IMG/VR virus record: IMGVR_UViG_3300031841_000673
Location: 1-22,116 of that record
DNA: 22,116 nucleotides
Origin: a virus
Direction: 5' to 3' (one strand)
Under the pieces are notes generated by a model, which was given only the letters and a program-made list of their open reading frames with translations, had not been told where the DNA came from and did no database searches. Shown here in pieces: positions 1 to 17,694 of this stretch. Both the position numbers and the translations under genes were made by a program. Position 1 is the stretch's first letter. Each line of letters opens with the position of its first letter.

Positions 1-87
1 AACGATGTCGTTGATTAGATCTACGCTATGTCCCATAGCAGTAAAGTCTTGTGTGCGCTCTTCAGCGGTTCTTGCTTCGTCAGTCAT
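1..87 (-). CDS. Partial gene of unknown function (N-terminal 29 residues)
   Basis: An open frame begins with ATG at 87 and runs off the left edge without a stop. The 29 visible residues start MTDEARTAEERTQDF and continue with a GHSVDLINDIV segment, charged and probably helical. A near-ideal Shine-Dalgarno AAGGAG (95-100) lies 7 bases upstream and overlaps the TAA stop of the preceding chaperone gene, so the start is well supported. It is the next gene after the tail-fibre cassette and is probably co-transcribed with it. I do not recognise a family from this fragment, and no function is proposed. Confidence 0.7.
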   Translation of the reverse strand, partial: MTDEARTAEERTQDFTAMGHSVDLINDIV

Positions 88-98
88 GGATTAACTCC

Positions 99-329
99 TT
101 AGTTTGGTTTAGTTGGCATATACGTTTCGCAGACTGTTCCATCCCAAAGCGTAATACCTGAAAAATCAAGACCACTTGTGACGTCTCTCAACGACTGTCT
201 ATAAGTAGCCCACTCAGTTTTTTTTGCGTCTGTTAATGGAGAATCATTGAATTGCGTCCAATCAGACTCTTGGAGTAACTGATTTCTACGCCTTCTAACA
301 TCCTCCATCATCATGTTTTCTACGTTCAT
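99..329 (-). CDS. Phage tail assembly chaperone-like protein, second copy (PF16778 type)
   Basis: This 76-residue protein has the layout of the small phage tail assembly chaperone family: a basic helix (RRRRNQLL), the signature DWTQFND, then TDAKKTEWATYRQSLRD and a C-terminal proline-rich end (MPTKPN). It is clearly related to the protein at 6051-6251, which shares DWTQ, TDA, WATYRQ and LR at the same spacing. The start follows the stop of the giant fibre gene by one base (TGATATG) and has a GAGG Shine-Dalgarno inside the last codons of the fibre gene, so translation is probably coupled. Family members are encoded beside tail fibre genes and are thought to help fibre folding or attachment. 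Inference: this copy serves the repeat fibre immediately upstream. The C-terminal half differs from the first copy, as expected if the partner differs. Confidence 0.8.
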   Translation of the reverse strand: MNVENMMMEDVRRRRNQLLQESDWTQFNDSPLTDAKKTEWATYRQSLRDVTSGLDFSGITLWDGTVCETYMPTKPN

Positions 330-330
330 A

Positions 331-3300
331 TCACACCTCTAAAAGAGAAACGTTTTGTGCCAAGCCGCCGCTGTGACTCGTCCACTCCATGTCGTACATA
401 AAATTATAAGTGCCGCCAGCCGAGCTAACTGTTTGTGTTATTGAAAGCACTACTTCTGTGCCAGTAGCTGAGGCAATAGCAATGGTTGGATCACGAGTTG
501 TAATGTCACTGCTCAGTGCGTTTAACAAGCTTGTGCTTCCGTTCCAAAAAAGTCGGAAGGTTTTAGTTCCCGTACCAATGTCTACTCCGACATCATCTAA
601 AACATATTTTAAAGTCAAAAGACCATACATATTGCCGCTTTGACCTTTAATTTTTATAAAGTTTGTTGTTGTAGCACTAGCAATTGATGCCTTTTCAGCT
701 ACCAGCCTAACAGCAACGGCTCCCGCATTATCAGAGCAATAACGCTCTGCGCCGTTTGCATCAATGCTTAACCGTGGATTACCGTCACCATCTGACAAGA
801 CGATGTTGTTGTTTCCGGTGCGGATGTCGAGGCCGCCTTGGTTGCCGTTGTAGGCACCAAGAATGGTGTTCTTCGATCCAGTGGTAATTGCACTACCAGA
901 ATTTGCTCCAACAACAGTATTTATGTTTCCTGTCGTAGCCGCTCCAAGCGCTCCGTTTCCGATAGCAACGCAATCGTTTGCCGTCGTAAGCGCGTCACCC
1001 GTTTGATATCCCAAAAGGGTATTGGCGTAACCTGTAGTAATTGCCTGTCCAGCTTGCAAGCCTACGGCGACGTTGTAATAACCGGTGGTGTTTAGTCGAA
1101 GTGCTTGATAGCCAACGCCTGTGTTGTTTGAGCCTGTTGTAGTTTCAGTCAAAGACTCATAACCGACAGCCGTGTTCGCACCTGCCGTTGTATTTGCATC
1201 CAGTGCAAGAGCGCCTATTGCGACACTATTTGCACCTGTGGTGTTTGCAGTAAGCGACTGATAACCCACAGCGGTGTTGTTGTTGGCGGTGGTGTTTGAC
1301 TTTAGAGAAGCAACACCTACCGCTGTATTACTAGAGCCGGTTGTATTGAAACGTAATGCGCCGGCGTTTGTGCCATCAAAACCACCAATACCTACGTTAG
1401 ATGTGCCTGTAGTGTTAGCGGCTAGGACAAAAGAGCCTACAGCCGTCACAGTTCCGGTTGTATTGCCAAGTCCAGCCTGATACCCAACGGCTGTGTTGTT
1501 AGCCGCAGTGGTGTTTGCAGTAAGCGCCTCATAACCTACGGCAACGTTGCTGGATGCTGTAGTGTTTGAATCAAGAGCCGCCGCACCGACTGCTACATTA
1601 CTTCCACCGGTAGTGTTTGCCGCAAGAGCGTTGTTACCTACTGCAACGCTTGATGAGCCAGTAGTATTTGCATTCATTGCTGTTGTACCAACAGCCACGT
1701 TTGAGCTACCTGTTGAGTTATACAGCGCCTGTACACCAACACCTACGTTGTTTGATGCGGTAGTTGCAGTACCTACAGCGTTCACACCGATAGCTATGTT
1801 GTAGTTACCTGTAGTAATTGCATCACCTGCAAAAGCGCCTACTGCCGTGTTTTGTGTGCCTGTAGTATTTGCATTTAATGCAGTCTTACCAAACGCTGTG
1901 TTGTTGCTGGCCGTAGTGTTGGAACGTAAGGCTTGATGTCCCATTGCTGTGTTGCTACTACCTGTTGTATTTAAAGCAAGAGTTCCGACATCGACACCAT
2001 TAATACCAGATCCCACAGCTACGTTTGCAGTTCCAGTTGTATTAGATACTAAAGTACCATTACCGACAGCAGTATTATCAGAACCTGTGGTATTGCTACC
2101 TAAAGCATCTTTACCTATAGCTGTAACACCACTACCAGTAGTGTTTGCGTCTCCAGCTAGGGCACCAATAAAGGTATTGTTTGAGCCTGTGGTTGTATAT
2201 AAACCTGCGTAAAATCCCAAAGCAGTATTGTAGGCATTAGTGGCAGTAGTAAAGTTTTGAGTGTATAAAGCCGCCGTTCCAATAGCGGTGGATCTACTAC
2301 CTAATGTATCGGCGGTAAGAGCTAAGTTTCCTACTGCAACATTAAAATCGCCATCAGTGATAGCACGACCAGCCTGACTACCAACAAAAGTGTTTTCTTG
2401 ACCTGTCGTTAATGACCGACCAGCTTGATAACCAAGACCAGTATTTTCTGTGCCTGTAGTGTTTGCATACAGCGACTGATAACCAACTGCGGTGTTGTTG
2501 TTGGCGGTGGTGTTTGCATTAAGCGCCTGCCTACCTACCGCAGTGTTGCTTGCACCCGTCGTATTAGCTTTTAGGGTGTCGCTTCCAATCGCTACATTGT
2601 CATTCGCAGTGGTGTTGTTTTCTAGTGCGCCATAACCAAAAGCGTCGTTAGCCAAACCCGTAGTATTGTCTTGTAAAGCTAAATTACCTACTGCCGTGTT
2701 GTATGAGCCTGTAGTGTTGTAGGTTAACGCCAAACGACCTACACCAGTGTTAGCTGATCCAGTAGTGCTTCGGAATAACGTTTCGTGACCTACTGCGGTA
2801 TTTGAGAGACCTGACGTATTACCAGACAGCGCACGATAACCAACAGCAGTTAAGGCTCCTTGCGTAGTTATAGCGTCCAGCGCATAGTTGCCAACCGCTA
2901 CGTTTTCAGTCGCAGTTGTTGCGTTGTTCATTGCGACTGCGCCTACGGCAGTATTCAAGCCGCCAGTGCTAAGAGTTGCGCCAGTAGCATAGCCAATCAT
3001 TACGTTATTAGCGGCAGACGTTTGTGCTGTAGCCGCTTCATAGCCTATGGCAACGTTAAAGTTACCTGTCACAACAGCGTCAAGTGAGTAAGCGCCAAGA
3101 GCAGTGTTGTACTGGCCTGTTGTTAAGCCTCCGCCAGAGTTGTATCCAACGGCTGTGTTTAAAGCCGCTGTTGTAGATGCAGTAAGTGCACTTTGACCGA
3201 TAGCAACGTTTTGACCGCCAGTGGTGTTTGCGTATAGCGACAGATACCCAACAGCAGTGTTGTTGGAGGCGGTGGTGTTTGCTCCTAAAGCACTTCTACC

Positions 3301-4170
3301 AACGGCTGTGTTGTTACTACCCGAAGTATTTGCAAGCAAGGCACTATCACCTATTGCGGTGTTAAGTGCGCCAGTGGTGTTGGAATAAAAAGACTGATTA
3401 CCAAAAGCGGCGTTGTTATACCCCGTCTGGTTGCTATATCCGGCCTGATAGCCCACCGCCGTGTTGTTAGAGGCTGTGGTGTTTGAGTTAAGCGCCTGAC
3501 GGCCAATAGCTACGTTGTTTGAGCCTGTAGTGGTGCTGTATAACGCATTCAAACCCATTGCGGTGTTATTGCCACCTGTTGTATTGCTATAAGAAGCATT
3601 AACACCAACAGAGGTATTAGACGCGCCGGTAGTATTGGAATAAAGGGTTTGATGCCCTAAAGCTGTATTGTTATCTGCTGTGGTAGCGGCGGTTAAAGCA
3701 GTCGAGCCCAGTGCGACGTTTGCAGTGCCTGTAGTGTTTGCAAACAAAGCGCGATGTCCAACTGCCACGTTATTATTAGCCGTGGTATTATCAGTTAATG
3801 CTTGCATACCAACGGCGGTATTTTGAGTTCCAGAAGTATTTGCTTCGAGCGCGGCAAAGCCTAATGCGGTATTGGAAGATGCTGTGTTTGCCGTCAGCGC
3901 ATTAGCACCGATTGCTGTTGAATAATTACCTGATACAAGACTATCCAACGCAGTATTACCCAGCGCTACGTTGTCCGTACCAACAGGATAGTTACCATCC
4001 AGCTTGATTGTGCCGCCATCGACTGACAGGTTGCTTGAAATAGTAACCGCGCCAGTAAACGTAGCACCCGACAGTTCAGCCTTATCGGTGTTAAGGTTGG
4101 TGAAGTTAGCATCCACCTCGTTGTTAGTGAGAGGCGAACCCTTCCCAGAGCGTGTTGTAATCGTAGTCAT
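331..4170 (-). CDS. Giant tail fibre or adhesin with 61 YadA-head-like repeats
   Basis: This 1279-residue protein is probably a long side or tip fibre that contacts the host surface. Residues 1-66 form an N-terminal anchor beginning MTTITTRSGKGSPLTNNEVD, a start seen in many phage fibres. Residues 67-1121 are, by my count, 61 consecutive units of a 17-residue repeat with consensus NTAVGxxALxxNTTGxx. The conserved Asn, small and hydrophobic positions and invariant Gly resemble the left-handed beta-roll of trimeric autotransporter (YadA, Hia) heads. Four units carry insertions of 4 to 7 residues and three lack one residue. Residues 1122-1279 are a non-repeat C-terminal domain, a candidate receptor-binding or trimerisation head. 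The ATG follows a GAGG Shine-Dalgarno at 6 bases. A small chaperone gene follows directly. Structural role is sure from context; trimeric beta-roll fold is inference. Confidence 0.85.
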   Translation of the reverse strand: MTTITTRSGKGSPLTNNEVDANFTNLNTDKAELSGATFTGAVTISSNLSVDGGTIKLDGNYPVGTDNVALGNTALDSLVSGNYSTAIGANALTANTASSNTALGFAALEANTSGTQNTAVGMQALTDNTTANNNVAVGHRALFANTTGTANVALGSTALTAATTADNNTALGHQTLYSNTTGASNTSVGVNASYSNTTGGNNTAMGLNALYSTTTGSNNVAIGRQALNSNTTASNNTAVGYQAGYSNQTGYNNAAFGNQSFYSNTTGALNTAIGDSALLANTSGSNNTAVGRSALGANTTASNNTAVGYLSLYANTTGGQNVAIGQSALTASTTAALNTAVGYNSGGGLTTGQYNTALGAYSLDAVVTGNFNVAIGYEAATAQTSAANNVMIGYATGATLSTGGLNTAVGAVAMNNATTATENVAVGNYALDAITTQGALTAVGYRALSGNTSGLSNTAVGHETLFRSTTGSANTGVGRLALTYNTTGSYNTAVGNLALQDNTTGLANDAFGYGALENNTTANDNVAIGSDTLKANTTGASNTAVGRQALNANTTANNNTAVGYQSLYANTTGTENTGLGYQAGRSLTTGQENTFVGSQAGRAITDGDFNVAVGNLALTADTLGSRSTAIGTAALYTQNFTTATNAYNTALGFYAGLYTTTGSNNTFIGALAGDANTTGSGVTAIGKDALGSNTTGSDNTAVGNGTLVSNTTGTANVAVGSGINGVDVGTLALNTTGSSNTAMGHQALRSNTTASNNTAFGKTALNANTTGTQNTAVGAFAGDAITTGNYNIAIGVNAVGTATTASNNVGVGVQALYNSTGSSNVAVGTTAMNANTTGSSSVAVGNNALAANTTGGSNVAVGAAALDSNTTASSNVAVGYEALTANTTAANNTAVGYQAGLGNTTGTVTAVGSFVLAANTTGTSNVGIGGFDGTNAGALRFNTTGSSNTAVGVASLKSNTTANNNTAVGYQSLTANTTGANSVAIGALALDANTTAGANTAVGYESLTETTTGSNNTGVGYQALRLNTTGYYNVAVGLQAGQAITTGYANTLLGYQTGDALTTANDCVAIGNGALGAATTGNINTVVGANSGSAITTGSKNTILGAYNGNQGGLDIRTGNNNIVLSDGDGNPRLSIDANGAERYCSDNAGAVAVRLVAEKASIASATTTNFIKIKGQSGNMYGLLTLKYVLDDVGVDIGTGTKTFRLFWNGSTSLLNALSSDITTRDPTIAIASATGTEVVLSITQTVSSAGGTYNFMYDMEWTSHSGGLAQNVSLLEV
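808..3972 (-). repeat. 61 tandem 51-bp coding repeats (17 residues each)
   Basis: The coding repeat spans 3165 bases, equal to 1055 residues: 61 units of 17 residues, plus 21 inserted and minus 3 missing residues. Units are diverged at DNA level, but blocks recur. For example, a 46-base stretch at 1253-1298 matches 2471-2516 at 44 of 46 positions. Two units with the longest insertions (near 1340-1410 and 1955-2030) are each followed by similar unit series, which suggests block duplication of several units at a time. Confidence 0.9.
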
Positions 4171-4188
4171 GGTTAACCTCTTACTAAA

Positions 4189-4635
4189 TTAGGATGCAGT
4201 TAAAGTGATAGTCCAGTTGACAGTCAGCGTATCGTCAGCCGCTTTGTTCACTACACTAAACACAGTACGGCAGAGCATAGTTCCGCCAGATGAAGCATTG
4301 AAGATACCTGCCTCAGTCACCGCACCAGTTGCGTCACCAGCCTCGAATGAAGAGACGTAGACAATCTGGTTGTTAGTAACTGTGGAAGAGTCTAGTGCTT
4401 CGCGTGAGCCAAGCTGTGAACCCAGGGTGGTATCGCCAGCCGCCGCAGCGGTAGAGCCAGAACCCAACGCCATATGAGTCATCGCTGTCTCATCGTCTTT
4501 CATTCGATCGCAGATAAAGTTCAAGCCAGTATCTACAATCAAGTTTTCGATTAGACGCTCATCTTTGATGTTGCCATCTTTGTCCCGGAGAACTAGAGCG
4601 ACATCGCCTCGCAATTTCAATCCATCATTCATCAT
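4189..4635 (-). CDS. Tail fibre-type structural protein, 148 residues
   Basis: This protein has a mostly beta-strand, Gly/Thr/Ala-rich composition typical of small phage fibre or tip proteins. Visible landmarks are LIVDTGLNFICDRM near residue 33, then HMALGSGSTAAAAGDTTLGS, then TEAGIFNASSGGTMLCRTVF and a strand-rich end. The stretch pairing MALGSGSTAAAAGDT with TEAGIFN is a pattern I associate with phage proteins annotated as tail or hypothetical structural proteins; no enzymatic motif is seen. The gene starts with ATG overlapping the TGA stop of the 355-residue repeat protein (ATGA), with a GAGG upstream, and ends 18 bases before the giant fibre gene. It belongs to the accessory fibre cassette between the two chaperone genes. 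The precise structural role is not known. Confidence 0.65.
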   Translation of the reverse strand: MMNDGLKLRGDVALVLRDKDGNIKDERLIENLIVDTGLNFICDRMKDDETAMTHMALGSGSTAAAAGDTTLGSQLGSREALDSSTVTNNQIVYVSSFEAGDATGAVTEAGIFNASSGGTMLCRTVFSVVNKAADDTLTVNWTITLTAS

Positions 4636-5699
4636 GTAAATGTCCTCGATGCGCCGACATAATCCTCGGCAAAGTAAGTGAAGTCACAATAACCCTGACT
4701 TCTTAGGGTTCCTGAACTCGCTGCTGAAGGTGACTCAGTAAGCGATTTACTCATTGATTTTACATCTGAATCAGTCAATGCGCCATCATCAGACTTGACA
4801 GCATCAAAAGTTATCGTGTCTGAATCTGAGGCGCTAGGTGACTCAGTGAAGTCTCGAATATATACAACCGTTTTGGCAAACGTATCTGAGGCTGTTCCGC
4901 TGTCACTTACCAGCCTTAGAAGAGTCTTAGCTGGGCTATCATTGGCCGCTGGCGTCTCACTAAAGTTACGGATGAATGCAACGTCTCTGTCAAACACATC
5001 GCCGATAGAGACGATCTCAGAGCGCGTCTTAACAAAGTCAATTTCCTGATCATCCTCAGCAGATGCCTCACCGTCTAAGTCATCAGTGACAAAGGTTTGA
5101 TCAGATAGATTCTTGACGTAAGTAAACTCTTGCTCATCGCCCAAAAAGATTCTGTCGAGTCTATCGCCCGCAACATAGTCCTCAAGGAAGTACGTCACAT
5201 CACAATAATCATGAGCGGTATCACCGCCCACATCTTTCGTAACGTCCAAGGTGTCGTTATCAGTGAATGTTGATGCGTCGGTGAACACCTTACCCGGTGT
5301 AAGCGTCGCGTCCTCCGCAACAGATCCCGCATTGCTGAACGGCTTTGTGACATCGAAAGCGTGCGCCTCAGAAGCGCCAGGCTGTTCTGTCAGATTCTTA
5401 GCAACCGCCAGAGTGTCATCGTCACTGATAACTGATACATCTGATGTATTTTTTGATACATCTAGTGTGTCATCGTCAGAGCCAGATGGTGATTCTGACA
5501 GATTCTTTGTTACATCGAGCGTGTCGTTGTCAGATGTATTTGCTGTGTCAGCGAAAAGAATGATGCGGATGAAAAAGCCAAGTATCACCTCAGCCTTGAG
5601 TGCTTGAGCAACAACGACAGATTTCAGCGCAGACGCAACTGTATTAGCTTTGAGCGCTAATGCCGTTACCTTCGCTGAAAACCCGCCTTTTAGTCTCAC
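4632..5699 (-). CDS. Acidic 18-residue-repeat structural protein
   Basis: This 355-residue protein starts with GTG in a GTGA overlap with the BppU-like gene; there is no ATG near the start. Residues 1-49 are Lys/Ala-rich and end in a hydrophobic patch (VILGFFIRIILF). Residues 50-333 hold about a dozen units of a roughly 18-residue acidic repeat with consensus SDDDTLDVxKNLSExPSx. A motif of the form YCDxTYFxEDYVxxxR occurs twice, at residues 165-180 and 337-352, once in the middle and once at the very C-terminus. I do not recognise a named family. Context in the tail fibre cassette suggests an elongated virion protein or linker on the tail tip. The many Asp residues could bind metal ions, but that is inference only. 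Confidence 0.7.
   Translation of the reverse strand: MRLKGGFSAKVTALALKANTVASALKSVVVAQALKAEVILGFFIRIILFADTANTSDNDTLDVTKNLSESPSGSDDDTLDVSKNTSDVSVISDDDTLAVAKNLTEQPGASEAHAFDVTKPFSNAGSVAEDATLTPGKVFTDASTFTDNDTLDVTKDVGGDTAHDYCDVTYFLEDYVAGDRLDRIFLGDEQEFTYVKNLSDQTFVTDDLDGEASAEDDQEIDFVKTRSEIVSIGDVFDRDVAFIRNFSETPAANDSPAKTLLRLVSDSGTASDTFAKTVVYIRDFTESPSASDSDTITFDAVKSDDGALTDSDVKSMSKSLTESPSAASSGTLRSQGYCDFTYFAEDYVGASRTFT
4701..5552 (-). repeat. Degenerate 54-bp coding repeats (about 18 residues each)
   Basis: Imperfect tandem units of about 18 residues fill the middle of the 355-residue protein. The clearest consecutive units read SDDDTLDVSKNTSDVSVI and SDDDTLAVAKNLTEQPGA. Units diverge and change length towards the C-terminus. 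Confidence 0.75.
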
Positions 5700-6050: not shown

Positions 6051-6251
6051 TCATGCTGGCTTATTCGGCCATACAATATCTGACTTGTCTGTTGCGCTTG
6101 AGTAGGTATCAGGAAGATTCCGCAGCGCTTGCCGGTATGTCGCCCACTTAGTACGTTGTGCATCCGTCATGCCGTTATCGCTAAGTTGCGTCCAATCAGT
6201 GCGCGCTAATAAATCATCTCTTTTGCGTCTTATCTTGTCCCAATCAATCAT
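6051..6251 (-). CDS. Phage tail assembly chaperone-like protein, first copy (PF16778 type)
   Basis: This 66-residue protein starts MIDWDKIRRKRDDLLARTDW and has the family signature DWTQLSDNGMTDAQRTKWATYRQALRNL, here split for reading as DWTQ, TDA, WATYRQALR, followed by a VWPNKP end. I chose ATG at 6251 because it overlaps the TGA stop of the tip protein gene (ATGA); a longer frame starting at 6278 would lie inside the tip protein gene. It sits directly after the gpJ-like gene. Proteins of this family are thought to help assemble tail fibres or tips. A diverged second copy lies at 99-329 after the giant fibre. Confidence 0.85.
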   Translation of the reverse strand: MIDWDKIRRKRDDLLARTDWTQLSDNGMTDAQRTKWATYRQALRNLPDTYSSATDKSDIVWPNKPA

Positions 6252-9200
6252 CGGATACCTACAATAATCGTGTCGCACTTACTAACGGTGATTCTGTCTT
6301 GTGATACTTGCCCATCAAAATTGGTAACACTTCCTTTGATGTAAAACGTCTTACTTGCAGTTATCGCAGTATCAAAAAAGCCAATCATCTCAGCTGTGAA
6401 CTTTTCATAATTAGCTGATGTGTCATTAAAGAACGGATGCGTATAAACAAAATTAGCAATCGTTCCTAATGCACTAGCACCAGATTGATCATTAACAATA
6501 AATTCAACCTCGGGCAAATCGCCGCCATCGTCGTCCCAGTTGCTAGAGCCGATAATGTTCCACTCCATCTTAACGATGACTAGAGGCTTGTGGCCCACCG
6601 TCGTATCATCTGGCGCACCCAGCACAACACTGTCAATAGTGACTAAACCGTCGCCTGGCGCAATACTCACAGCTGTCGCTAAAGTATCAGTGACGTTTTC
6701 GTTAACGCCACCAAGCAGCTTGTCAAAGCTAATCGTGCCAGCAGTAATCTTTGCAGCAGTTACCGCATTAGCGGCAAGCTCATCAGTATTTATTGCCCCT
6801 GCCGCAATTTGTCCTGCGGTGATTGTATTAGCCGCGATTTCATTAGCTGTGACTGCGCCAGCATCTAGCTTTGCGGTAGTCACTGCGCCCGCAGCTATCT
6901 CATCAGCCGCAATCGCACCTGCGGCTATCTGATTTGCTGTGATCGTGTCTGAAGCGATTTCTGATGCTGTGATAGTGCCAGCGGCAATCTCTGTTGCTGT
7001 TATCGCACCAGCCGCAATCTCACTCGCAGTGATAGCGCCAGCGGCTATTTTTGCTGTGCTAATCGCATCATCTGCAATGGTTGTTGTGGTAATCGCACCA
7101 GCAGCAATCACGTCAGATGTAATCGCATCAACTGCAATCTTAGCGTTTGTGATCGCATCATCATCAATCTGTGATGAGCCTACAGTGTCGAGCGCGGCTA
7201 AATTCCCTGCGCCAGTGACATCACCAAGTGCGATTGCTCGCGTCCAAGCAGAGCCATCGTAACGATAAAGATTGTTATCAGTTGTCAAAAATGCCATGTC
7301 GCCTTGTGAGGCTGTTGCTGGCAAGGTTGAAACAACCTGCACCGGATTGATGCCTGATGCGAAAGCAGCAATATCGACAGCGCCATCTGCAATCTGATCG
7401 CTTCCCACGGCATCATCGGCAATCTGATCGCTTCCAATGGAATCATCCGCAATGTCGCTAGATCCTGCGGTTGATGCTGTGCCGTTAAAACTCGCTGTGG
7501 CGGCTGATTTGTTTCCAGAGAAGTCCACGGCTTTTAGCCAGAAATAACGAGTGTCGCCACCAGAAAGGCCCGTTACGATGTATTCCTCACCATCTACAAC
7601 AGCCGTTGGTGATGCTGGGATACTATCGGAGGTATTCACAAACACTTCTGTGTGCTTGAAATCAATATCACTAGGGTTGTCCCACTCAGCGGTGATAGTT
7701 TGCACGCCGCCTGTAGCCGCGCCCCCTGTTGGTGCGCTTGGTGCAGTCGTGTCCCCATTTAGTGCTTGATTAGTGAGTGTCGTGCCGGTGCTGGATACGC
7801 CAAGAAGATTCTGCGCTTGCACGCGGAAATCATAATTAGATGTGATGTCTAATCCTGATATGTATACACGCGGCTCACGCGATTCAGCATACAAATAATC
7901 AGTTGTTCCGTTCTTGTTATAACGGATCTTATAGAACTCAATAAATGCGTCATTAGGCTCAGTCCAGGTAAGCTCAACAGCGCTGAGAACCTGCCCATCT
8001 GGGCCTTGAAAGCCGATCTCTGTGAATGCCAGGCTTGTGACGTTATCGACAGTGCGCCCATCATATAGATCAAGTTCACCGCCAGCTAAAAAGTCCACCT
8101 CATCTGAGGTTGTCCAATCGTAAACAGCCGCAGCTGTTTCAATCAGCGTGAGCTTAACGCCAGATTCGCCGCTTGGCGTGATCATCAATTCGTAATCAAT
8201 AACCTCAAATACTTTGTTGGTATAGCCCAAGCGATCATTGGTGATGTTAACGGTATCGCCAACCTTAACTTTTAAGCCAGAGAGGTTGACTGTGAATGAC
8301 AGCACTACCTGCTGGCGTGATTTGAGCAATGCAATTTTAGCAATCCGCTGTGCTTGCAGGTTGTTAGTCACAAACGGCAAGGGCATATCAAGATAAACAG
8401 GATCGCCGTCCTCAGTCTCATATGTCGAACTGAGTTGCGCCGGATAATCCATAATCTTGTAATTCTTTTCCTCAGATATAAACGTGCCTTTCACGCCGTT
8501 ATAAACTGAGCGACGTGATTGCTTTGTTTGAATCGTTATTGCGGTGATGGTGTTCGATTCATCGAATGAGAAAGTAGGCGCGACATACTCCGCACCTTGG
8601 ATGAAATACTTGCCGTTTGAGTAAGCGATACGCCCGCCCATAGATGACAATAGGTTTTCGATATTCGCTTTGATTTGGTTTGACGTGTCGATGACACCGT
8701 TGCACTGATAGCGATCCTGAGTGCCGCCACCATCGAGACTCACTTGCTCATCACAAAGATCAGCCGCCGCCTCAAGCGCATCAGAATCAATGTTGGCATT
8801 TATCTCACCCAAGCCATAAGTGCTATCAAGCAAGTAATCGCGGACACACAGTGCTGGGTTTGTACTGTAAGCAGTGACATTTGTACGGGGATCAAAAACA
8901 CGCTTACCTTTGATGACTGCCGTGATATTTGGCACGCCTTGCGGGAACTTGTCTTGGTTCCACTCAAGTTTGAATGCGATGTATGCAATACCACTTAGCT
9001 TGTGATCTGATGTCCATTCAGTGATTGGCGTTAAAACACTTGAAGCGCTCTGCGCTGCTGTGCCTAGCTTGGTTGTATCCATTGTGACGTAAGTACCCCA
9101 GTCACTCTGAAAACCGCCTGATGCTGTCCAAATCTTATTGTCGTTAAACCACACCTCTTCATATGAATTGATGTAATGCGTAGCAAAAACCACAGCGAGG

Positions 9201-9481
9201 TGAAGGTATTTATTGTCATCGCCTGAGTGTGCAATGAAAACGACATTGCCACCGACACGCGCTTGTCCATAGATAATTTTTCTAGGCCCAGCAGCATCTC
9301 GCGTGGTAACAGTCGTACCGCGCATCTGTGATCCCAAATCAGGCTTTGGAATTAACGCATTGCTAACAGCAGATATGCCAGCGCCTAATGCAAACGCACC
9401 AAAAAAGACAGCCGCAGAAAAGCCCATCGCTACGCTTGCGCCTACCGCTGTGACTAACCCGACAACTGCACTTACCGCCAT
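6248..9481 (-). CDS. J: Tail tip attachment protein, gpJ-like (central tail fibre)
   Basis: This 1077-residue protein is the likely tail tip hub and host-contact protein, equivalent in position to lambda gpJ (1132 residues). Residues 4-43 are strongly hydrophobic (AVVGLVTAVGASVAMGFSAA followed by a second hydrophobic stretch). Residues 60-460 carry the conserved tip-protein core, including RKIIYGQARVGGNVVF, VWFNDNKIW and NPALCVRDYLLDSTYGLG. Two fibronectin type III-like domains lie at about 478-570 and 575-670. Ten-residue repeats follow at 679-708 and 774-923, separated by a segment with SQGDMAFLTTDNNLYRYDGS. The end, 924-1077, is a non-repeat domain that probably carries receptor specificity. 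The ATG at 9481 has a GAGG Shine-Dalgarno and lies 3 bases after the acetyltransferase stop. Identification is secure; the symbol is by analogy with lambda. Confidence 0.9.
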   Translation of the reverse strand: MAVSAVVGLVTAVGASVAMGFSAAVFFGAFALGAGISAVSNALIPKPDLGSQMRGTTVTTRDAAGPRKIIYGQARVGGNVVFIAHSGDDNKYLHLAVVFATHYINSYEEVWFNDNKIWTASGGFQSDWGTYVTMDTTKLGTAAQSASSVLTPITEWTSDHKLSGIAYIAFKLEWNQDKFPQGVPNITAVIKGKRVFDPRTNVTAYSTNPALCVRDYLLDSTYGLGEINANIDSDALEAAADLCDEQVSLDGGGTQDRYQCNGVIDTSNQIKANIENLLSSMGGRIAYSNGKYFIQGAEYVAPTFSFDESNTITAITIQTKQSRRSVYNGVKGTFISEEKNYKIMDYPAQLSSTYETEDGDPVYLDMPLPFVTNNLQAQRIAKIALLKSRQQVVLSFTVNLSGLKVKVGDTVNITNDRLGYTNKVFEVIDYELMITPSGESGVKLTLIETAAAVYDWTTSDEVDFLAGGELDLYDGRTVDNVTSLAFTEIGFQGPDGQVLSAVELTWTEPNDAFIEFYKIRYNKNGTTDYLYAESREPRVYISGLDITSNYDFRVQAQNLLGVSSTGTTLTNQALNGDTTAPSAPTGGAATGGVQTITAEWDNPSDIDFKHTEVFVNTSDSIPASPTAVVDGEEYIVTGLSGGDTRYFWLKAVDFSGNKSAATASFNGTASTAGSSDIADDSIGSDQIADDAVGSDQIADGAVDIAAFASGINPVQVVSTLPATASQGDMAFLTTDNNLYRYDGSAWTRAIALGDVTGAGNLAALDTVGSSQIDDDAITNAKIAVDAITSDVIAAGAITTTTIADDAISTAKIAAGAITASEIAAGAITATEIAAGTITASEIASDTITANQIAAGAIAADEIAAGAVTTAKLDAGAVTANEIAANTITAGQIAAGAINTDELAANAVTAAKITAGTISFDKLLGGVNENVTDTLATAVSIAPGDGLVTIDSVVLGAPDDTTVGHKPLVIVKMEWNIIGSSNWDDDGGDLPEVEFIVNDQSGASALGTIANFVYTHPFFNDTSANYEKFTAEMIGFFDTAITASKTFYIKGSVTNFDGQVSQDRITVSKCDTIIVGIR
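6713..7162 (-). repeat. Fifteen 30-bp coding repeats in the tip protein
   Basis: Residues 774-923 of the tip protein are fifteen exact-length units of 10 residues, consensus AGAITAxEIA, for example AGAITASEIA, AGAITATEIA and AGTITASEIA in a row. Three related units (DDSIGSDQIA, DDAVGSDQIA and a decayed third) occur at 7358-7447. Such Ile/Ala/Thr repeats are typical of extended shafts in phage fibres. Confidence 0.9.
7358..7447 (-). repeat. Three further 30-bp repeats in the tip protein
   Basis: Units DDSIGSDQIA, DDAVGSDQIA and DGAVDIAAFA follow the second fibronectin-like domain. They are the same 10-residue pattern as the main array at 6713-7162 but separated from it by about 65 non-repeat residues. 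Confidence 0.7.
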
Positions 9482-9484
9482 TGT

Positions 9485-9934
9485 TTACCTCACGCACTTA
9501 GCGTAAACACGCTCAATGTTCTCAAAGCCTTGACGCTCAAGAATGCGATCAAAAGGCTGATGAATTTTTGTATTAATGTTGATCTGTCGCACGCCCTCGC
9601 GCTCAAGACACTCCACCGCATATTTAATCAGTTTAATCCCGGTGAAGCCCTCACGCACGTCGGCTCTCAAAAATATGATGTCGTTGTTTGCAAAGATGTG
9701 ATCTTTGTAATGCAATGATGGGCCAACAATCAGCACAAAATAACCGAGCAACTCGCCACTCTTACGTGCTGTGTAAACACGCAACTTGCCAGCTGTATCA
9801 AGTGCAGCGTAAGCCTCCCAATCTGGGTTCAACTTGATGACATCTTGATTGAGCGCTATTTCTTCCCAATGCTCTTCAATGAGCGGCTTGATCTCATCTT
9901 TTACTTGGGTGAATGACTCGTGAGCAAATTCCAT
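9485..9934 (-). CDS. GNAT-family N-acetyltransferase-like protein
   Basis: This 149-residue protein has the length and strand/helix order of GNAT acetyltransferases, which move an acetyl group from acetyl-CoA to an amine. Visible are the central strands LLGYFVLIVGP and DIIFLRADVREGF, then a helix GIKLIKYAVECLEREG in the acetyl-CoA-binding position, and a C-terminal INTKIHQPFDRILERQGFE with the usual late FDRILERxGF element. The canonical Q/RxxGxG/A loop is not well matched; EGFTGIK occupies its place. The gene overlaps the upstream tail gene by TAATG and ends 3 bases before the tip protein gene, so it is embedded in the tail operon. The substrate is unknown. Modification of a virion protein or of a host protein are both possible. 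Confidence 0.7.
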   Translation of the reverse strand: MEFAHESFTQVKDEIKPLIEEHWEEIALNQDVIKLNPDWEAYAALDTAGKLRVYTARKSGELLGYFVLIVGPSLHYKDHIFANNDIIFLRADVREGFTGIKLIKYAVECLEREGVRQININTKIHQPFDRILERQGFENIERVYAKCVR

Positions 9935-10566
9935 TATCTATGCTGCCCACCATGTCGTTCATCGCCGCCACCGCCGCCTCCGCCGCCACCGCCGCCACTA
10001 CCGGCTTGAGTGCTGCCCCAAACAATTTCCTTTTCAGCCATTTCAGCGACAAACTCCAAGCCTTTATCATTTGGGTAATCAATCTTTTGATCCTCAGATG
10101 TGTAACGGCGTTGACGTGAACGCTCAAACTCAATCAGCCTGTTCTCAACAGTGACTTTGATGGTTGAGGTATCACCAGAATCGGTGATTGTCATCGTATC
10201 CATGAAGCCTGAAAAGATCACAAACGGATTGCTGATCAGCGAGTTACTTGAGTTCATAGTGCCAAGCAATATCTTTAGCTCGCGTCCTTGGTAATCCTCA
10301 TCACGCGCTTTAGACAATAGCGGCTCAGTCACGCCTGACAGTTGTACAGTTGCGCCGTTAGCCTGTAACTCTGTTGATTCTTTGATGCCGCTTACAGCCA
10401 GCAATGTTCCCGCGCCAACGTATGTGACGCTGCCAGCGGTTAAGCTACCGATGCCGCCCCAGAGATTAAGATTGCCAGAATCAAACGCGCACTGAACAAA
10501 AAGAACTGGGCGAACGACATCAGCCGATACCGCATTGGCAACCGCTGTTGGTAATCCGCGACTCAT
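9934..10566 (-). CDS. Distal tail protein with C-terminal polyglycine
   Basis: This 210-residue protein begins MSRGLPTAVANAVSADVVRP and contains FDSGNLNLWGGIGSL, ATVQLSGVTEPLLS, DEDYQGRELKILLG and TVENRLIEFERSRQRRYTSE. These motifs recur in a phage tail protein family encoded between the tape measure and the tip protein, in the lambda L neighbourhood. I believe it is a distal tail or hub component but cannot name the family with certainty. The C-terminus holds eleven consecutive glycines followed by DERHGGQHR. ATG at 10566 overlaps the TGA of the preceding gene (ATGA), and the stop overlaps the acetyltransferase start (TAATG), so translation is coupled on both sides. Confidence 0.75.
   Translation of the reverse strand: MSRGLPTAVANAVSADVVRPVLFVQCAFDSGNLNLWGGIGSLTAGSVTYVGAGTLLAVSGIKESTELQANGATVQLSGVTEPLLSKARDEDYQGRELKILLGTMNSSNSLISNPFVIFSGFMDTMTITDSGDTSTIKVTVENRLIEFERSRQRRYTSEDQKIDYPNDKGLEFVAEMAEKEIVWGSTQAGSGGGGGGGGGGGDERHGGQHR
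9964..9996 (-). repeat. GGC-rich 9-bp tandem repeat encoding polyglycine
   Basis: On the coding strand the 33 bases read as 9-base units GGCGGCGGT or GGCGGCGGA, 3.7 copies, encoding eleven glycines. The tract is a candidate for replication slippage. Gain or loss of whole units would change glycine number without shifting the frame. Confidence 0.85.
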
Positions 10567-14952: not shown

Positions 14953-16185
14953 TTAGCCGTCGTTACCGAATGCGAAGCTAACCGCGTGGCGTACTGCCAC
15001 ATCTACAGACTGAAGCGCTACAACGCGAACAGTGCCGCTAGTGCTGTTGGTGTATGGATCAACAACGATGTCGAGTCCACCGAACATACCAACAAGCAAA
15101 TCAGCAAAGTTACCGAAGTAGAGGTTTCCAGCTGTACACTGGTTAGAAACGATGCCACGGTAGCCGTTGATTGAACCGCCAGGCTCAACAACGAACTGAG
15201 CAGTGCCAGACGCTTTCTCAGTTGTCTTCAGAGCGCCGTACATAGAAGCTGGCAAGATATATGCCAAGTTTCCAGTAAGAGCGTTGTCTTCAGCAACCGC
15301 AGTTTCCAGAGTTACAACTTCAGCGAAGGTTGGGTTAGCAGCCGCGAAAGCAGTCACAGTGTTGACACCAGAGGTGTTCAAGATGCCTGTGGGCTGTCCG
15401 CTTGAGCCAGAACCTTCAAGACCAGCCAAGTCAATCGCAGTTGCGATAGCTTGAGCCAAGTCATCACGCATCATTGCCTCAACATCCATTGAAGATTGGA
15501 TGAGCAGCTGACGTGTTACGTCAGTGTGCGCGCCGAGTGTCTTAGGTGTCATTGAAACCTGTCCAACAACCATTTCTGATTCAGCCGATGCACCGCCTTC
15601 AGTAGCGATCCAACCCGCTGAAGCAGCAGTTGTTTTCTTAGGAATCTTAACGTCACCAGAAAGGCCACCGAGCATACGTGCGCCCGCTTGCATTACAGAT
15701 GAAGCGTTGCGGAGTACGTCGATGAACTCACCACCACGGAAGTCGTCAGTAAACAACTCTGCCTCATCCGCTGAGTTTAGATCGCGAGTCCAGTTACGCA
15801 GAACGTCAGCTGGGAGCATGATGCCCTGCGCTGATTTGCCATACTGATCAGCAGCGGCGCGTGAACATTCAAATTCAAACGCAGCGGCTTCCTGAGCGCG
15901 TCGATCAGTTGGGTTTGCCATAGCGTGTACAGCGCGAACAAGTGAAAAGCGTTGTGCTTCTTTCTTGTTCAAGCCGATTTCTTGGCTTTCCAATGAACGA
16001 TCAGAGCCAATCACTTCAAGCAACTCGCCACGAAACTCTTCGATAGACTTGCCTTCTGAGATTGCACGCTGTGCGAGATCAGATTTGCTGTGACGTGCGC
16101 CAAGCTCAACAATTTGAGCGGCGTTCTTTTGGGCGGCTTTACGAGCATCTGCTTCGACTGCCGCGATATCAATTGATTCTGACAT
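14953..16185 (-). CDS. Major capsid protein from an internal start
   Basis: An in-frame ATG at 16185 (Met504 of the fusion) has AAGGAGA 5 bases upstream, better than the site of the full-length frame. It would give a 410-residue HK97-fold capsid protein. The start MSESIDIAAVEADARKAAQK opens a charged helical region (to about 150) that looks like the scaffolding delta domain removed on maturation. The shell part includes AGWIATEGGASAESE, LGAHTDVTRQLLIQSSMDVE, LEGSGSSGQPTGILNTSG and a C-terminal VRVVALQSVDVAVRHAVSFA. Separate capsid translation would supply hundreds of copies while the fusion gives only a few protease copies. Whether both products exist is not shown by the sequence alone. Confidence 0.75.
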   Translation of the reverse strand: MSESIDIAAVEADARKAAQKNAAQIVELGARHSKSDLAQRAISEGKSIEEFRGELLEVIGSDRSLESQEIGLNKKEAQRFSLVRAVHAMANPTDRRAQEAAAFEFECSRAAADQYGKSAQGIMLPADVLRNWTRDLNSADEAELFTDDFRGGEFIDVLRNASSVMQAGARMLGGLSGDVKIPKKTTAASAGWIATEGGASAESEMVVGQVSMTPKTLGAHTDVTRQLLIQSSMDVEAMMRDDLAQAIATAIDLAGLEGSGSSGQPTGILNTSGVNTVTAFAAANPTFAEVVTLETAVAEDNALTGNLAYILPASMYGALKTTEKASGTAQFVVEPGGSINGYRGIVSNQCTAGNLYFGNFADLLVGMFGGLDIVVDPYTNSTSGTVRVVALQSVDVAVRHAVSFAFGNDG

Positions 16186-17694
16186 GGGTATCTCCTTAAA
16201 GTCAGTTTTAATCACGGGTTGAGATGAAGCAGAGCCTGATCGCCCAACCCCTACGGAGGCATCCGCAGGAATTGAAACCAAACTTGCCTCGACTGGACGC
16301 CAAGACTTAGCCACATAAGTGTCCTTGTCTTTTCTTTCCAGTTTGTTGATGGCGTAACCAATGGACACGTTAGCCTTGATCCCATCAACTACATCGTCGA
16401 AAGCCTCTCTAGCAAGTGCGCCTTTGCCAAAACGCACCGTCGCACGGAGCCGCCGTGCCGAGCCGTCGAGATCGACAGATTCCACAACGCCAATTTGTCT
16501 TTCTGGATCGTGATCCAAAAGAAGCGGGGCGCGTCCGCTGTTCAAGAAACTCAGATCAATTGCTTCTTCTGAGTGTTCTAATACTTCCATTCCGAATGAG
16601 CGCTGTACTGGCTCTTCAGAACTCACAGCCATCTTTACGCGGCGCGACTCCTCATCAACCGCCTTTGCTGAAAGTTCCATTGCACGATGAGTAATCTCAA
16701 CACTGCCTTTGCGTTCTTCCGCTTCCTCTTCTTCAGCATCATCTTCAGACTTGCCGAACTCGATAATCACTGAATCAGCAGTTTCAGTTACATTCTTGAT
16801 ATGACGCTCTTCTTCATCATATCCACGGATAGGATCAATCTTAGTCAGCGTCGAAAAGCGGTGGCCTACTCGCACATCACTCTCGTTACCTTCGCTGTCA
16901 TAGACGCGAATCAACGCCGCAGGATCTTCCTCAGTACCGTTCACAGTAAAGTCTGAATCAGGCACATTGATTGATCCATCACGCTCAATGCGCTCGATCT
17001 TTCCTCTCGCTCTGCCACCGGATGAATTCCAGCTTACAAAGTCGCCAACTGATAACTCATCTGGCTCTGCGCGTTTTTCTGTTTCCATTGCACGTTCCTC
17101 AATGGCCGGTTCAAATTCCAAAACTTCCCAGTTATTTTCACGCAACCATTCGCGCGCTTCATCCTCTGAGAACTGTGACGAATCAAAGCGTATCGACTGA
17201 ATCTCTGTTTCGCCGTCTTTATAACCAACGATTATATCAATTCCCTCACCAAGTTCATCATTTATGCGTCTGAACTGTTCGTATTGGCCAGGCTCTCTGA
17301 TTCTCGCCGCGTGTTCATTGGGGTATGGACGCTTATCCTCGTAAGCGCGCTCATCTAGTGAATTGAGTCTTTGCGTGATTCTGTTTGCCCAAGACTCTCC
17401 AGCATCTCCTCCCCAAAGCTCCCAAGCAATTCGTCCTGCGCTGGGGAATCCTTCCTCTCCACTACTGAATCCTTCTGCCTGTTTATCGACAGTGTGTCGC
17501 GCAAAATAGCTATACATACGCCGAACAGTATTGATACTGAGATCGCGACGGTTAATGAGATCACGAGCGCGAGCGACGCCAACCTCAGTACCGCCACGCC
17601 CAAATTCCTCACGCCACTCCAAACCGCGTTTAGCATTGTTTGCCATCGCCTCCGTTGGTTTTGTATTTATTTCCTCGCCCTTATACGTCGCCAT
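14953..17694 (-). CDS. Prohead protease - major capsid protein fusion with extra N-terminal domains
   Basis: This 913-residue polyprotein has several parts. Residues 10-115 form a helical domain (NNAKRGLEWREEFGRGGTEV, later SAGRIAWELWGGDAGESW) known at the front of some phage head proteins. Residues 165-195 carry IRFDSSQFSEDEAREWLREN, as in XkdF-type proteins. Residues 214-287 (VGDFVSWNSSGGRARGKIER) match the Tudor-like DUF2945 pattern. Residues 335-485 are an HK97-type prohead protease with likely catalytic His395 (LLLDHDPE) and Ser444 (NVSIGYAI). Residues 504-913 are an HK97-fold capsid protein. A GAGG site precedes the ATG, which overlaps the portal gene end by 14 bases. Inference: the protease cuts the fusion during maturation. 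A possible further start at Met203 (17088), behind a GAGG, is weaker evidence. Confidence 0.9.
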   Translation of the reverse strand: MATYKGEEINTKPTEAMANNAKRGLEWREEFGRGGTEVGVARARDLINRRDLSINTVRRMYSYFARHTVDKQAEGFSSGEEGFPSAGRIAWELWGGDAGESWANRITQRLNSLDERAYEDKRPYPNEHAARIREPGQYEQFRRINDELGEGIDIIVGYKDGETEIQSIRFDSSQFSEDEAREWLRENNWEVLEFEPAIEERAMETEKRAEPDELSVGDFVSWNSSGGRARGKIERIERDGSINVPDSDFTVNGTEEDPAALIRVYDSEGNESDVRVGHRFSTLTKIDPIRGYDEEERHIKNVTETADSVIIEFGKSEDDAEEEEAEERKGSVEITHRAMELSAKAVDEESRRVKMAVSSEEPVQRSFGMEVLEHSEEAIDLSFLNSGRAPLLLDHDPERQIGVVESVDLDGSARRLRATVRFGKGALAREAFDDVVDGIKANVSIGYAINKLERKDKDTYVAKSWRPVEASLVSIPADASVGVGRSGSASSQPVIKTDFKEIPMSESIDIAAVEADARKAAQKNAAQIVELGARHSKSDLAQRAISEGKSIEEFRGELLEVIGSDRSLESQEIGLNKKEAQRFSLVRAVHAMANPTDRRAQEAAAFEFECSRAAADQYGKSAQGIMLPADVLRNWTRDLNSADEAELFTDDFRGGEFIDVLRNASSVMQAGARMLGGLSGDVKIPKKTTAASAGWIATEGGASAESEMVVGQVSMTPKTLGAHTDVTRQLLIQSSMDVEAMMRDDLAQAIATAIDLAGLEGSGSSGQPTGILNTSGVNTVTAFAAANPTFAEVVTLETAVAEDNALTGNLAYILPASMYGALKTTEKASGTAQFVVEPGGSINGYRGIVSNQCTAGNLYFGNFADLLVGMFGGLDIVVDPYTNSTSGTVRVVALQSVDVAVRHAVSFAFGNDG
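16191..16197 (-). promoter_or_regulatory. Internal ribosome binding site for the capsid protein
   Basis: The coding strand reads AAGGAGA, then TACCC, then ATG at 16185. This strong site lies within the protease-capsid fusion gene, at the protein boundary between the protease and the capsid delta domain. Confidence 0.8.

Follow-up and report, generated by a model that had tools for sequence, protein, structure and literature searches.

A putative phage tail fibre with a 17-residue repeat array, a conserved cap and a head that also occurs on other arrays

The closest described counterparts of the protein studied here are the YadA-like heads of bacterial autotransporters (YadA 1P9H, EibD 2XQH, BoaA 3S6L, BpaC 7O23, and AtaA 3WP8). 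These are beta-rolls of 14-residue layers, each layer with an invariant glycine, a conserved alanine and a hydrophobic residue, and they can form long arrays (42 layers in BpaC; PMC9543794). In such rolls position 7 faces the threefold axis, and inserts between positions 14 and 1 are rare (PMC9543794). YadA-type domains are also known in marine phage fibres (PMC3909814, PMC7029224); mass spectrometry detected a YadA-domain protein in virions of cyanophage S-SZBM1 (PMC9146016), and that of S-TIM4 mutated during host adaptation (PMC6224464). As far as the accessible portions of these four papers go, such proteins are tail associated and carry YadA-type segments, as does the fibre considered here, and those portions describe neither a 17-residue layer, nor a conserved cap, nor exchange at the cap. 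In Alteromonas phages, a fibre and its cognate chaperone are common to distantly related phages (PMC10579305).

Here we analyze a viral record of 22,116 bases (the window), which carries a tailed-phage structural module on its minus strand. Its fibre shares with the YadA-like heads the predicted beta-roll, the long array, and the glycine, alanine and hydrophobic residue at the same relative positions in each layer. The layers have 17 residues rather than 14, the protein has neither a YadA_head match nor a membrane anchor, and, unlike the autotransporter heads, it is encoded among phage tail genes and terminates in a cap followed by a head. It belongs to the same array family as fibres with Peptidase_S74 (the endosialidase chaperone), whereas it lacks that domain and is accompanied by a separate chaperone gene. 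Alteromonas phage A5/V22 shares a whole host-recognition module (PMC10579305); in our case only the tip and the chaperone appear to have moved, with the tip joined at the cap onto a different shaft.

The fibre gene and its repeat array

The structural module encodes a major head protein, a tape measure, a distal tail protein and a J-like central tail protein (6248..9481, minus strand; Pfam Phage-tail_3 and fn3; PHROG central tail fiber J). The fibre gene (331..4170, minus strand; ATG at 4170, stop at 331) encodes 1,279 amino acids and lies between the J-like gene upstream and a tail assembly chaperone gene downstream (99..329, minus strand; Pfam Phage_tail_APC, E of 1.5e-16). PHROG virion-structural and tail-spike families match the fibre through its repeats. 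The preliminary description, made from the sequence alone, had called the protein a phage fibre, and the tail module, the adjoining fibre chaperone and the virion-structural relatives agree with it.

The first 39 residues (KGSPLTNNEVDANFTNLNTDK...; 4054..4170) form a module presumed to attach to the virion, and they are followed by a linker, residues 40 to 66 (SNLSVDGGTIKLDGNYPVGTD; 3973..4053), that runs into the array. Residues 1 to 42 have counterparts of up to 93% identity in other phages, and residues 32 to 77 recur at many loci with 70 to 90% identity, there without the part corresponding to residues 1 to 31. A query with residues 1 to 77 found at least 559 relatives among the candidate loci. 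Clusters of N termini drawn from BLAST linkage were discarded, as the linkage was too loose to be of use.

The array consists of about 60 units of 17 residues (residues 67 to 1100; 871..3972). The 61 units with the consensus NTAVGxxALxxNTTGxx that had been reported are real: about 61 can be counted (61 ± 1 when degenerate units are included) over residues 67 to 1121, or 808-3972. The last unit (residues 1101 to 1117) and residues 1118 to 1133 are better taken together as a conserved cap, distinct from the repeats. Spacing is nearly strict, as had been claimed, with 49 successive spacings of exactly 17 residues in a position-specific scan; the others are 16 to 21 residues or involve units with small inserts. 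Identity at a lag of 17 residues is 0.43, against a mean of 0.12 and a maximum of 0.15 in 1,000 shuffles. Glycine occupies position 5 in 54 of 54 units, asparagine position 1 in 49 and threonine position 13 in 50, with a regular threonine ladder at positions 13 and 14. Thr, Ala, Gly, Asn and Ser make up about 70% of the array, which has almost no charge. At the DNA level the units are on average 50% identical (maximum, 80%), and no exact repeat of 30 nucleotides or more was found within the array. Because the units average only 50% identity and close copies are lacking, we consider the array old rather than freshly amplified, and it has probably been kept by selection on the protein. Recent amplification or slippage was also considered and set aside, as the array has no close DNA copies and near-identical pairs of fibres align without gaps and have equal numbers of units.

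Repeats and unusual reading frames occur elsewhere on the minus strand of the window. About ten AAGAITAxEI repeats of 10 residues close the J-like protein (6600-7140; identity of about 0.4 at lags of 10, 20 and 30). Between the fibre module and a BppU_N-like gene, a 355-residue protein with a GTG start (4632-5699) contains imperfect 18-residue repeats (SESPSGSDDDTLDVSKN-like) and has no Pfam or PHROG match. Eleven consecutive glycines lie near the end of a tail-protein open reading frame (9934-10566), which is overlapped by a frame in another register, making this a possible frameshift site. A 913-residue protein (14953-17694; phrog_2859 match) joins a protease to the major head protein and has about 320 additional residues at its N terminus.

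The conserved cap and the head

The array ends in a cap, or connector (residues 1101 to 1133, NTILGAYNGNQGGLDIRTGNNNIVLSDGDGNPR; 772..870), with the motif GNQGGLDIRTxxNxIVLSDGDGNPR. It is nearly invariant in a set of 40 fibres chosen without use of the motif: the stretch from GNQGGLDIRT to GNPR is mostly 85 to 100% conserved, including residues outside the search pattern, and conservation falls from 0.85 to 0.20 one residue past the cap. About half of the distinct relatives picked without regard to the cap contain it (50 of 92), and so do seven phage records, among them the Roseobacter isolates CRP-1, CRP-7 and CRP-831, and also the isolate phage S-SCSM1. A literature search that reached largely papers open without subscription returned no description of this cap or of the 17-residue layer.

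Beyond the cap lies the C-terminal head (residues 1134 to 1279; 334..771), the presumed receptor-binding tip. A separate head had been proposed and is present, but its size is 146 residues rather than about 158. Within IMG/VR, this head occurs only in L085, L086 and L087, besides a second contig identical to the window over positions 1-4187 (L002), and it was not found in isolate phage records. Its model is all-beta and of low confidence (pLDDT, 57), so its role as a tip is argued from position and exchange. The model was too weak for the fold to be named, and matches to the CspB jelly roll (Z of 8.1) and T4 gp9 (Z of 6.8) are simply recorded. Peptidase_S74 was found neither in this fibre nor in that of L085, with Pfam or with a purpose-built profile. 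The latter detected it in 73 of the 92 distinct relatives not chosen by the cap, and Pfam in all 10 tails checked, twice below the curated cutoff. A mutual exclusion of cap and S74, suggested by a regular-expression count, was dropped when Pfam found S74 in members that the expression had missed; a profile recount leaves a weak trend.

Among 159 fibres with the cap, all 26 pairs whose heads agree at 70% or more have unrelated arrays (34 to 56% identity), and where both N termini can be seen they differ. The opposite arrangement, near-identical arrays with unrelated heads, occurs in two pairs. We favor, with a probability of roughly 0.78, the reading that the protein is a tail fibre (side or tip) composed of a beta-roll shaft, a connector and a swappable receptor-binding tip. 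The N-terminal module would anchor the fibre to the virion. Some 60 stacked layers, in each of which a YadA-type layer of 14 residues is extended by a constant NTT insert, would form a stiff shaft of approximately 29 nm (at 4.8 Å per layer, the rise taken from PMC9543794), probably a trimer about a hydrophobic position 7 column; and the cap would close the roll. The 146-residue tip past the cap would bind the host surface, and the adjoining Phage_tail_APC product would aid its folding in trans, replacing the intramolecular Peptidase_S74 chaperone of most relatives. Tips, here with the chaperone, would be exchanged at the cap, while the phage's own anchor and shaft stay. We infer the trimer, the virion attachment, the receptor binding and the pairing of chaperone and tip.

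It might instead be the array that adheres, over its whole length, to glycans, host surfaces or particles, the C-terminal part serving mainly as a trimerization or folding cap. YadA-like rolls are indeed binding heads in bacteria (those of YadA bind collagen), and the cyanophage YadA-domain protein is reported to have gained substitutions under host adaptation (PMC6224464). Against this, one head occurs with different arrays, the arrays have few charged residues, and sharp variability begins past the cap and not within the array, so we regard an adhesive array as unlikely.

The predicted fold of the array

AlphaFold2 was given an ungapped alignment of 80 eight-unit windows, that is, of paralogous repeat windows, and the eight-unit model has a mean pLDDT of 81.8 and a pTM of 0.76, with mean pLDDT values between 44 and 82 across the five models. 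Each unit is predicted to contain two short strands, as in a parallel beta-roll. Solved autotransporter heads match this model well in VIA-align (Z of 13.9 for EibD, 13.5 for BoaA, 13.4 for BpaC, 13.2 for YadA and 13.1 for AtaA) and outrank the hexapeptide transferases; all five superpose at 2.0 to 2.4 Å over 112 to 114 of 136 residues, or about 14 per 17. From these matches we infer that the predicted roll is left-handed. Viral models in BFVD match the eight-unit roll with a TM score of up to 0.97, and proteins of giant viruses have the same predicted fold. Foldseek alone found no match in the PDB at an E value of 0.001 or below, and sequence and profile searches of the PDB gave nothing significant. 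The beta-roll that had been proposed is thus borne out at the level of prediction.

The unit length is 17 residues, compared with 14 in YadA-like layers and mostly 15 in UspA1. As 112 residues equal 8 times 14, the superposition suggests that each unit comprises a canonical 14-residue left-handed layer plus a constant three-residue insert. When the register is anchored by setting Gly5 of the unit as position 8, a choice made on that glycine, 2,552 units have Gly at position 8 (0.99), Ala at 6 (0.81), Val, Ile, Leu, Phe or Met at 7 (0.95), and Thr or Val at 5 (0.84), which resembles the layer signature reported for autotransporter rolls (PMC9543794). The constant NTT then falls between positions 14 and 1, the site of the rare inserts in those rolls. 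The equivalent of position 7 is hydrophobic in 54 of 54 units of the array; as that position faces the axis in autotransporters, the fully hydrophobic column speaks for a trimer but does not prove one.

The best single structural match is the ice-binding protein of the plant Lolium perenne (3ULT; Z of 16.0, 22% identity in the structural alignment), and the roll alone is for that reason no proof of trimerization. A monomeric solenoid with an ice-binding-like or hydration surface, in place of a trimeric shaft, would account for this match and for the threonine ladder. The unbroken hydrophobic column at the axis-facing position (PMC9543794), the tail context and the S74-type relatives, typical of trimers, all speak for the shaft, and the fibre shows no sign of ice binding or of close sequence kinship with the plant protein. 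We consider the solenoid very unlikely.

The likeness to the YadA family that had been pointed out holds for the predicted fold but not for the profile. The proposed search with YadA-head profiles came back negative, as the fibre protein has no Pfam match even at an E value of 1, and three of the 81 family segments touch YadA_head (PF05658), in no case with significance (best E, 0.056). Nor did Pfam detect a C-terminal YadA anchor barrel in this protein, whose C terminus consists of the cap and the head. The suggestion that the phage borrowed a bacterial adhesin, in the form of a recently captured fragment of a trimeric autotransporter, would explain why the predicted fold is the same as that of the YadA, BoaA and BpaC heads. 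However, with neither YadA_head nor anchor matched in Pfam, with many phage fibres among the sequence relatives, and with the bacterial relatives scanned being S74 proteins without an anchor, a recent loan is highly improbable.

Relatives of the fibre and exchange at the cap

Relatives of the array fibre are encoded at no fewer than 597 loci in a scan of IMG/VR viruses and in 98 isolate-phage records, including Synechococcus, Prochlorococcus, Pelagibacter, Roseobacter and Bacillus SPO1-type phages, and the relatives sampled hold the 17-residue period. Those of HTVC111P and CRP-7 are annotated as tail fibre or tail structural protein. The protein had been thought long for a phage fibre; at 1,279 residues it is not, given that complete relatives in a sample biased to strong matches have a median length of 1,134 residues, a 95th percentile of 1,762 and a maximum of 2,810. 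Since lengths reach this maximum, 61 units are in the upper range but not exceptional. The repeat fibre belongs to a very common family, of which it is an ordinary example and whose fold is a variation on one already known.

Bacterial chromosomes also encode relatives, mainly in Bacteroidetes and mostly as secreted proteins; in seven of seven scanned, Peptidase_S74 is present and the YadA anchor absent. These secreted Bacteroidetes-type proteins (L210-L287) combine 17-residue arrays with Peptidase_S74, and one (L254) has a near-threshold type IX sorting domain. Their signal-like N termini raise the idea that the fibre is a secreted or lysogen-surface protein merely encoded beside tail genes. 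We give this little credence, as the fibre of the window lacks a signal-like N terminus, its gene is flanked by tail genes on one side and a fibre chaperone gene on the other, and isolate relatives are annotated as fibres.

Exchange at the cap is clearest in L085. Its fibre carries the same head on another array, one with irregular layers, and has a different N terminus (MATYVNDLRLKE...), and a single block of 830 bases (window positions 887-58), spanning head and chaperone, is 93.1% identical. Within the array, identity at the DNA level is about 0.5; it climbs at residue 1125 and then stays at 0.84 to 1.00 through the head and the chaperone. The Phage_tail_APC-type gene begins 5 nucleotides downstream of the fibre in the window and in L085, and its product is 98.7% identical in L085 and L086, there likewise 5 nucleotides after the fibre. 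Apart from the chaperone paralogue, other genes of the window have no match in L085, L086 or L087. Because the window holds a second, resident chaperone 3' of the J-like gene (6051..6278, minus strand; 47% identical over 55 residues), the 99..329 copy looks like an imported partner of the head. In the pairs examined, the DNA switch points map to the cap or its edge; in L061/L181 the ungapped register does not persist past it, and L057/L300 are identical for about 200 codons beyond it. The comparisons demonstrate that head plus chaperone have been transferred and that heads and arrays are decoupled. Fourfold-site identity is 0.57 in the cap and 0.39 in the preceding array, which would fit exchange at the DNA level, and the excess may also come from codon use and the non-homologous registers of the arrays.

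That the exchange reflects chimeric assembly of metagenomes at the conserved cap, whose DNA could mislead assemblers and beyond which L057/L300 are identical for so long, is scarcely credible, since over head and chaperone 7% of positions differ between the window and L085, which are thus separate alleles, L002 repeats window positions 1-4187 in a second contig, and the cap is present in isolate genomes. L002 continues beyond the start of the window with genes whose translations resemble a lysozyme and an ERF-like recombination protein.

Exchange of tips at the cap would be possible because the cap is nearly identical in many phages. It may be a standard socket, common to many environmental phages of different lineages, in whose conserved DNA recombination would swap in foreign receptor-binding tips, sometimes with their chaperone, while the phage's own anchor and shaft are kept; tips would then form a gene pool across lineages. 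We see the case for this broader proposal as evenly balanced. Tip exchange itself occurs between otherwise unrelated phages, and the cap as its boundary is the part worth following. Arrays of this kind are abundant in environmental phages and are mostly missed by the standard domain library, which is why such fibres often go unlabeled; reading the layer as 14 plus 3 residues gives them a fold. The cap is a sequence mark for the end of the shaft and the start of the host-specific tip, and with its help the receptor-binding tips of metagenomic phages could be demarcated and their host range tested.
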